Under the pieces are notes generated by a model, which had not been told where the DNA came from, did no database searches, and was given only the letters and a program-made list of their open reading frames with translations. The position numbers and the translations under genes are program-made. A stretch of DNA of 64,000 nucleotides from Candidatus Nitrosocosmicus arcticus. Lineage in GTDB: Archaea > Thermoproteota > Nitrososphaeria > Nitrososphaerales > Nitrososphaeraceae. Below are positions 61,948 through 64,000 of the stretch, one piece after another (positions within the stretch are counted from its first letter, which is position 1; each line of letters begins with the position of its first letter). The DNA is taken from the NCBI RefSeq assembly GCF_007826885.1, contig NZ_ML675578.1:248001-312000 (forward strand), given 5' to 3'.

Positions 61948-62250
61948 TTACTTTGATTTTTTATTTTTATCATTTGCAACTTTGATCATATTCTCCTTTT
62001 CATGATTTAATTCATCATCGGTCAAGTTAATTGCAGATATTATGGTAAGGTTACCTCCATTAGGAGGAACTTCAGTAAAAATGATTACATGGTTAGAAGT
62101 CTTTAATATATTAATTACCGATTCATCATATAATGGCAGGTTCAATTCAAGATCTTTTATTGGAACAACGGATCCAAGATCATCGATATCTAGTAAAGTA
62201 ACATTTACCTTGTATTCTGCCTCGTTTATTTTATTAATCTTAACTAGCAT
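61948..62250 (-). CDS. hypothetical protein
   Basis: A 100-residue soluble protein of alternating strands (EYKVNVTLLDIDDLGSVVPIKDLELN, HVIIFTEVPPNGGNLTIISAI) and a charged Lys-rich tail. No motif recognised. Function unknown. Confidence 0.6.
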   Translation of the reverse strand: MLVKINKINEAEYKVNVTLLDIDDLGSVVPIKDLELNLPLYDESVINILKTSNHVIIFTEVPPNGGNLTIISAINLTDDELNHEKENMIKVANDKNKKSK

Positions 62251-62651
62251 TAATATAATACATCATCATCTCTAATACATTTTTCGTTTGACTACCTATG
62301 TGATAATCTATGAGATGTTTTTTATAAACACATGACTCGGAGATAATCTTCCTTGCCTCCCTAACGTTTTGTCCATTGCACACGGGAACAGCACCAAGAA
62401 ATGAAACTAAATCTTTTGTAAAATTGTAAAAGCAAATGATTTCGATAGGAATATCGAAAATACGTCTGAATACCCAAACGATACCTTATCAAATCATACG
62501 TATAAAATAACTCATTTGACAAAATTTACTACAGCATAATCATGATATTTTTTGAATTTATTTTGATTGTTTCATACAGGTGTTATTGAAAATGTAATGG
62601 ATACCCCATCAGCATTTTTTGATCTAGATTGTAATCTATGCCTCCATTATA
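62251..62651. other. intergenic between divergent genes
   Basis: No gene. It leads into the hsp20 control region. Confidence 0.4.
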
Positions 62652-62695
62652 TTACAGAATGTAAGATAACTTTATATATTGTAATGTGTATTACA
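62652..62695 (+). promoter_or_regulatory. hsp20 promoter with two palindromic operator candidates
   Basis: TTACA-gaa-TGTAA (62652-62664) and TGTAAT-gtgt-ATTACA (62680-62695) flank a TATA box, TTTATATATT (62671-62680). The ATG is at 62716. Same half-site in both, so one repressor or activator dimer type could bind on each side of the TATA box. Confidence 0.55.
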
Positions 62696-62715
62696 TATAG
62701 TAGGTATATTATAAA

Positions 62716-63375
62716 ATGAGTAATAAAGACATAGTACCAAGCGATTGGATAAGCAGATTCTTTGATACAGGTTTAGGAAGAGGAAGGGGAAGAGGATTAT
62801 TTAATAGAGACATGTCCAGCGATTTTGATGACATTCATGAAGAACTGAATAGAATGTTTGATGTTTTTAACAATATATCAATTAACGCCCCAAAAGAGCT
62901 TGTAAGAGAATATGAAACAAAAGAAGGCGGGAAGGTTAGAGAAGTAGGACCGATAGTGTACGGATATTCAATGACGATCGGACCGGACGGTAAACCTCGC
63001 GTAAGGGAATTTGGAAATATCAAATCTTTGGGTGATAACAATGTAACTAAAAAAGGAGGACAACCGGATCACCCACCCCAAATATCTGCTGAAAGAGAGC
63101 CCTTAGTTGATGTGAACATGACGGATAAAGAAGTCAAAGTAGTGGTTGAAATGCCTGGTATCAGAAAAGAAGATATAAAAATTAAAGCATATGATTCTCA
63201 AGTTGAAGTAACAACATCAAAGGATGCCCCAAGAAAATATCATAAAAATATAGAACTTCCAGAGCAAGCCGAAATTGAAACCGCAAGATCTGCATATAAC
63301 AATGGCATATTGGAAATAACCTTCGACAAAAAGATAGTAAAAAAACCCGCAGGTAAAGAAATTAAAATAGAGTAG
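62716..63375 (+). CDS. Hsp20-type small heat-shock protein
   Basis: A 219-residue archaeal Hsp20 with a long N-terminal arm (residues 1-125: a Gly/Arg-rich GLGRGRGRGLF and an acidic FDDIHEELNRMFD helix). The alpha-crystallin domain runs from about 126 to 205, with EREPLVDVNMTDKEVKVVVEMPGIRKEDIKIKAYD and the GILEITF motif near the end. It binds unfolding proteins and prevents aggregation in the cytoplasm. The promoter carries two matching palindromes around the TATA box, suggesting stress control. Confidence 0.92.
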   Translation: MSNKDIVPSDWISRFFDTGLGRGRGRGLFNRDMSSDFDDIHEELNRMFDVFNNISINAPKELVREYETKEGGKVREVGPIVYGYSMTIGPDGKPRVREFGNIKSLGDNNVTKKGGQPDHPPQISAEREPLVDVNMTDKEVKVVVEMPGIRKEDIKIKAYDSQVEVTTSKDAPRKYHKNIELPEQAEIETARSAYNNGILEITFDKKIVKKPAGKEIKIE

Positions 63376-64000
63376 ACTTTAAATCGATACTCTGGACCTC
63401 AATAACTTTATTTTTTTTATTTTTCCAAAATAACAACTACATGTTAGTTTTGTTTTATTCAAAATTATTAATAATCTCAAGAATTTATATCACGAGACCT
63501 ATACAGATTGGTCGTAATCGGAGCTAGACCATGGTTAATAGTACGTTACTTTAATTTGCTGCGACACAGACATCTACTTTGAGACATTATCTAGCTAAAG
63601 GTAGAGGAATGAAAATAATTAGTTCCGCCCTGGGTTTAAACGAATCAATATAACTTGCATCCAGACGAGCTTATTTCAACTCACCTGGATGTAAGCATCA
63701 AGCCTAAATGATGCATACTATGGTGATCCTTCATGAATATTAAATATTTGGATGACCTGTAGGTGAAATTATCCTAAAATAACCAAATTGATTCGAAGTA
63801 TATAAATGAATTATTGCGGATTGTTGGATTCGGCATGAGCATATATTTGATCAAAACGAGTGAAGCTATTTTGATTGACTGCGAATTCGCTTTATCTAGT
63901 TAAGCATCACTTTTAGTCATATCTGTCGTTAATTTCAAATAAGTCACAGGATCCATAAATCGAGTGTAATCTCAAAAGCCTAATTAAGAGTTTTTCCATA
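63376..64000. other. intergenic to window end
   Basis: No gene seen. Two short hairpin-like repeats, CATCCAG..CTGGATG and GCATCA..TGATGC, lie near 63657-63713. Confidence 0.4.
63409..63425 (+). terminator. T-rich terminator candidate after hsp20
   Basis: A run of eight T and a following five T, about 35 bp after the hsp20 stop. Confidence 0.45.

Follow-up and report, generated by a model that had tools for sequence, protein, structure and literature searches.

The hsp20 promoter of Candidatus Nitrosocosmicus arcticus carries two palindromes around its TATA box, of which the downstream one (site 2) is, judged by sequence, an ancient element with an unchanged position ahead of hsp20 in Nitrosocosmicus and some other members of its family Nitrososphaeraceae, as well as in Nitrosopumilaceae. 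We consider the chances somewhat better than even that these palindromes form, as their sequence predicts, an operator at the hsp20 core promoter, bound by a dimeric regulator that is most likely a repressor and for which a protein that we call X is the leading candidate. The window analyzed here is a stretch of 64,000 nucleotides of this Candidatus Nitrosocosmicus genome (G000) that contains hsp20, and positions given without a contig name refer to it.

The first-pass annotation had described palindromes of the form TTACA-N3-TGTAA and TGTAAT-N4-ATTACA around the TATA box TTTATATAT (62671-62679, plus strand), and both coordinates and letters are correct. Site 1 (TTACA-GAA-TGTAA, TTACAGAATGTAA; 62652-62664, no strand assigned) abuts the BRE position, with the BRE-like stretch and TATA box together spanning 62665-62679 on the plus strand and owing their presumed promoter function to analogy with archaeal promoters. 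Site 2 (TGTAAT-GTGT-ATTACA, TGTAATGTGTATTACA; 62680-62695, likewise without strand) lies directly 3' of the TATA box and is the predicted ancient operator. The hsp20 open reading frame (62716-63375, plus strand) encodes a small heat-shock protein of 219 aa with a PF00011 match above cut-off. Because the usual archaeal spacing between TATA box and start puts the beginning of the hsp20 transcript near 62700 (expected region 62698-62704, plus strand, placed solely by this distance), site 2 should lie between TATA box and start and thus outside the transcript. The half-sites of sites 1 and 2 have opposite orientations, which is unusual for one dimer. Two further TGTAAT half-sites are found upstream (62593-62598 and 62630-62635), neither of which the closest orthologue (L003) has retained, and a 100-aa open reading frame on the minus strand upstream of hsp20 (61948-62250) is conserved in position across 12 Nitrosocosmicus loci.

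Either palindrome by itself is unremarkable in frequency, in the window as well as in the genome. The window has 17 occurrences of TGTAATNNNNATTACA at up to two mismatches versus 11.2 expected and 9 of TTACANNNTGTAA at up to one mismatch versus 5.2 expected, and the 16-mer has 4 exact places genome-wide and 30 places at up to one mismatch versus 28 for the reversed control. Such near-chance frequencies are what one would expect of chance palindromes in AT-rich DNA, which together with a feature of the transcript (a leader hairpin or RNA thermometer) make up an explanation that we hold to be very improbable, given that conservation far exceeds both shuffles and flanks. The whole composite of both palindromes and TATA box, a pattern derived from the same window sequence, occurs once in the window and in none of 100 dinucleotide shuffles. 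An RNA thermometer or leader hairpin was set aside because the region 62680-62760, were it transcribed at all, shows no folding beyond that of shuffles (z -0.23), and the window has no Rfam match. The signal beyond chance is conservation, not frequency.

Among orthologues the hsp20 promoter block is kept while the DNA upstream drifts: in a comparison of 10 promoters from close relatives, average identity rises from 0.51 in the upstream DNA to 0.85 for site 1, 0.89 for BRE/TATA and 0.94 for site 2, the last value being favored by the choice of promoters with site 2 required. No other block of the promoter is conserved as well as site 2 in this comparison. When the best hsp20 match of each genome is taken, site 2 (at least 11 of 12 letters) follows the TATA box in 14 of 15 Nitrosocosmicus promoters, and L016 of this genus has a similar site located farther upstream instead; seven further hsp20 paralogues of the same comparison are without site 2. 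Site 1 (at least 9 of 10 letters at the same offset) is present in 11 of these 15 best-match promoters, the other four being one cut by a contig end, L012 with one additional base and two without site 1, and Nitrosopumilaceae show other half-site arrangements at its position. The proposal of twin palindromes as a conserved pair thus survives for the ancient downstream member, and the upstream one is an elaboration of Nitrosocosmicus.

The same distribution is seen in a motif-blind set of 80 hsp20 loci collected by protein similarity, of which 76 were used (L099, L118, L121 and L124 were dropped for too little upstream DNA) and scored for a site of at least 11 of 12 letters, with A or C at the fourth letter and the mirror form allowed. 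Nitrosocosmicus, with L077 and L093 counted in, has the site in 14 of 18 loci versus 0.2 expected from shuffles, three of the 14 (L090, L096 and L100) being variant sites that lie farther upstream and precede a different TATA-like stretch. Other Nitrososphaeraceae/Nitrososphaerales have it in 8 of 25 loci (0.18 expected; some of the eight are genus-mates as well), Nitrosopumilaceae in 3 of 3 (0.04 expected) and outgroup archaea in none of 30 (0.02 expected). Outside the main lineage, site 2 is absent from many hsp20 genes. Absence of the motif from orthologous hsp20 promoters, named beforehand as the observation that would speak against an operator, is not what these loci show, as the element is kept in both orders of ammonia-oxidizing archaea.

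A search with TATA box and site 2 combined (TATNNTGTAANNNNNATTACAT) found 51 places in 70 genomes of the family versus 4 for the reversed control, and a pattern shorter by one base matched in 126 genomes out of 400 from the class, the control giving 14 matches in total (the figures of 51 and 126/400 were counted by hand from result tables). The hsp20 coding sequence lies just 3' of the pattern in 90 of 115 fetched loci (L047 and L171 being one place), and the remaining 25 include cut or truncated hsp20-like starts, two Cdc48-like genes, L175-L178 and apparent chance matches. In four genomes, L175-L178 (family f3) have TATTCTGTAAGATC(C/T)ATTACA before one and the same gene, which by its look may encode a CsaA-type tRNA-binding-domain protein. 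L172 (G338:C51) has a perfect TATA-plus-site promoter before a gene whose product is, again by its look, presumably a stand-alone Lrp-type ligand domain. All 20 Nitrosopumilaceae gaps between X and hsp20 that were fetched via X, and in which the strict pattern is missing, have TGTCAT-N4-ATTACA at the same place. Of the 63 readable among 64 X-hsp20 gaps, all have ATTACA and 62 have TGT[A/C]AT, with the site immediately 3' of the TATA box; most of the 64 were found through the motif, and the independent sample is the 20 fetched via X.

The target set of the putative operator looks narrow, comprising hsp20 plus cdc48, either via the operon or via a copy of its own in two genomes. Reading 15 of the 30 genomic places at up to one mismatch revealed the TATA-plus-site layout only at hsp20, and neither the three thermosome genes nor five Cdc48 homologues of G000 have a site of at least 10 of 12 letters. 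With the motif missing from the three thermosome promoters of this genome, the targets do not look like a general heat-shock set. In Nitrosopumilaceae, hsp20 is followed by the gene of a Cdc48-type AAA+ ATPase, and a Cdc48-like open reading frame lies downstream of the operator-bearing hsp20 in 49 of 153 pattern loci. L159 (G008:C283) and L160 (G009:C104) have a Cdc48-like AAA+ gene whose promoter itself shows the TATA-plus-site layout and whose short leader is similar to N-termini of Hsp20 from that genus, a picture that would fit capture of an hsp20 promoter. G000 has a second hsp20-like gene (L040 920-1422, minus strand; G000:C2 near 210258; also L030) that is split over two frames, with a one-mismatch site (TGTAATATATTTTACA) 94 nt before it and no TATA box beside that site.

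Protein X (ca. 220 to 250 aa) has a DUF7523-like helical N-terminus and tandem ACT domains. Its gene is back-to-back with hsp20 (then cdc48) in Nitrosopumilaceae and several other genera; this divergent arrangement occurs at 47 of the 153 pattern loci (44 of the Nitrosopumilales set and 3 Nitrososphaeraceae), where X usually starts about 70 nt from the hsp20 TATA box. In Nitrosocosmicus and genus g9, X is unlinked from hsp20 and its promoter has no full site 2. X of G000 (246 aa; G000:C7:38235-38978, minus strand) is instead back-to-back with the closest Cdc48 homologue, which starts at C7:39150 on the plus strand, and between the two there is a degenerate TATATAA-TGTATAAATTATTTCA (9 of 12 letters by hand count) 64 nt from the start of X. 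The simplest history would be an ancestral cluster of X and hsp20-cdc48 that hsp20 later left together with its operator. Two positions relative to site 2, -58 and -38 (spaced by 20 bp), each have a TGT[A/C]A half-site in 48 of 63 Nitrosopumilaceae gaps (e.g., L155 and L279), near the presumed core promoter of X, and autoregulation of X is possible. The region upstream of X in genus g9 has a site-1-like TTACA-N3-TGTTAG.

The matches of X to DUF7523 and ACT_7 are both under their cut-offs: all 21 aligned X members match DUF7523 (PF24367) at E up to 1, the best at 2e-6, and the two members detailed reach 25 and 22.5 bits versus the curated cut-off of 27 bits. A structure model of X (pLDDT 79) has four N-terminal helices followed by the tandem ACT region, which matches the regulatory domains of aspartokinases (6mx1_B; Z 14.9, rmsd 2.6, 138 residues aligned). 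By this model, the C-terminal part of X thus shares the fold of the tandem ACT domains of aspartokinases but, unlike these enzymes, X has no kinase domain and its N-terminus is a small helical domain with weak likeness to DUF7523. Modelled alone (pLDDT 84), this domain forms helices 7-17, 19-26, 32-47 and 53-78, the last of which (from N52) may be a recognition helix. Structure comparison of the models found no convincing solved relative for it, with weak best matches to the DNA-binding domain of ColE2-P9 Rep (Z 3.7, rmsd 5.5, 78 aligned) and second to sigma-H (Z 3.3, rmsd 2.6, 53 aligned). A sequence search of solved structures with X gave no credible relative. ArgR appeared among fold matches only at an rmsd of 9-10 and was set aside. 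The idea of a stress operator for a dimeric regulator gains a conserved operator-like element, but the candidate regulator is a DUF7523/ACT protein and not of a recognizable winged-helix family.

With presence of X defined at E of at most 1e-15, the 70 Nitrososphaeraceae genomes comprise 34 with X and operator, 11 with X only, one with the operator only (G059) and 24 with neither. Five of the 11 X-only genomes (G015, G018, G024, G033 and G039) have a site of at least 11 of 12 letters in the X-hsp20 gap. The co-occurrence has a Fisher P of 5e-9, or 3e-6 without Nitrosocosmicus, both values ignoring ancestry and draft gaps, and many of the genomes are drafts. More telling than this P value is the operator-less hsp20 of genomes without X: 11 such genomes, each at least 92% complete, retain hsp20, and none of 23 hsp20 promoters from X-less genomes (matches with a locus and a usable start, with short or partial matches dropped) reaches 10 of 12 letters for the operator. 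Some X-less genomes have weak, distant X-like matches. Nitrosopumilaceae give no contrast between X and operator because X is nearly universal there. Paired GTTA[C/G]TCAC-type half-sites are present in 9 of the 23 X-less hsp20 promoters, with paired GTTACTCA(C/T)/GTGAGTAAC or repeated GTTAGTCAC half-sites upstream of hsp20 in L304, L305, L321, L322 and L324 as well as L308, L318, L319 and L328; they are possibly another operator.

It is less probable, though worth serious consideration, that the operator is real but served by a different regulator encoded elsewhere (ArsR/Phr-like, Lrp/CopR-like or with another HTH), with X as a conserved and perhaps co-regulated neighbor. Such a regulator would account for G059, a 92% complete draft with three operator-bearing hsp20 genes in which X was not found, and it would fit the unlinked position of X in Nitrosocosmicus and an N-terminus of X without a proven DNA-binding fold. 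It does not readily explain why the operator is missing where X is missing though hsp20 is there, or why X keeps a fixed back-to-back layout across distant genera.

If X is the repressor, its dimer on site 2 would cover DNA where RNA polymerase loads and, because this site lies between TATA box and start, would keep the polymerase (or TFB contacts) off, and stress-triggered release of the dimer would turn hsp20 on. Site 1, abutting the BRE, may be an extra regulator site in Nitrosocosmicus. That X binds there and represses is inferred, as is what induces hsp20, which could be heat or a small molecule that the ACT domains of X would sense; the repressor would target hsp20 (and cdc48).

The palindrome might instead be a core-promoter element for a basal factor (a TFB or TBP variant), with hsp20 switched by an alternative initiation factor and not by a repressor. 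The distance from TATA box to site 2 is constant in the promoters read, as expected of a core element, and Lu et al. in 2008 reportedly proposed a TFB-based heat response in archaea, going by the title of their work. Proposals of TFB-based heat responses in other archaea also feature in a passage on BRE and TFB (PMC10653856). We nonetheless judge a basal factor unlikely, as site 2 has the two-fold symmetry that fits a dimer, is found almost exclusively at hsp20 promoters and disappears along with X. An activator, or a regulator acting both ways, would bind as dimers at sites 1 and 2 and help to recruit TBP/TFB, and site 1 indeed lies directly 5' of the BRE where the activator CopR has its motif according to an excerpt of PMC7830388. 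This, too, seems improbable to us, since the ancient site 2 is downstream of the TATA box, where a bound protein normally blocks polymerase, and site 1 is not general.

For the preferred reading of a repressor at site 2, the closest parallels are the euryarchaeal systems of Phr and HSR1. Phr of Pyrococcus furiosus is described in part of PMC9133787 as binding over the start site and stopping polymerase from joining TBP/TFB, and the targets that a passage of PMC10653856 gives for Phr and HSR1 are sHSP and AAA+ ATPase genes, with no thermosome among them. The system described here resembles Phr in its putative regulatory site over the hsp20 core promoter and in its presumed sHSP and AAA+ ATPase targets in place of the thermosome, as far as these parts of PMC9133787 and PMC10653856 go. 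It differs in that the Phr site, in the same excerpts, overlaps the start (TTTA at -10, TGGTAA at the start and AAAA at +10), and the hsp20 promoter has no match to this motif within 2 mismatches when 6-base gaps are assumed; X is moreover an ACT protein by model, whereas Phr is described otherwise. HSR1 of Archaeoglobus fulgidus has a palindromic site, sHSP and AAA+ ATPase targets and a regulator gene beside hsp20, as presumed for the present system, but its gene is in an operon with hsp20, whereas X is divergent from it. The HSR1 motif CTAAC-N5-GTTAG is not in the hsp20 promoter, the nearest match (up to 2 mismatches) being at 63433, past the gene. CopR of P. furiosus, an Lrp-type regulator, has a semi-palindrome TTNNCAWWWTGNNAA directly 5' of the BRE that roughly matches site 1 in place and look (PMC7830388, in excerpt); it differs in its copper-efflux targets, as given there, and has no bearing on site 2, and the hsp20 promoter has no exact match to its motif. 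By analogy, the best reading is that the operator would work like the Phr and HSR1 systems while carrying neither motif.

In the literature searched, which was mainly open-access, we found no description of this operator, its letters or DUF7523. Ammonia-oxidizing archaea carry out much of soil and marine nitrification. Their hsp20 is used to indicate stress from copper or ammonia, as stated in a passage of PMC11334935, and the parts consulted of PMC9133787, PMC10746257 and PMC10653856 name the euryarchaeal Phr and HSR1 as the only archaeal heat-shock regulators identified, with none known in Crenarchaeota. With a confidence that falls just short of even, we propose that X is a novel archaeal stress regulator that joins a DUF7523-type helical DNA-binding domain to aspartokinase-like tandem ACT sensors and, in most ammonia-oxidizing archaea, controls the proteostasis module hsp20-cdc48 via a core-promoter palindrome, perhaps tying chaperone expression to heat and also to the amino-acid or nitrogen status, and that lineages losing X rewired hsp20 to a GTTA[C/G]TCAC-type palindrome. 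If the reading of X and its operator is true, it would provide the first testable case of a heat-shock regulator in ammonia-oxidizing archaea and a function for a DUF7523/ACT protein, and the X-less lineages would be a natural experiment in operator replacement.
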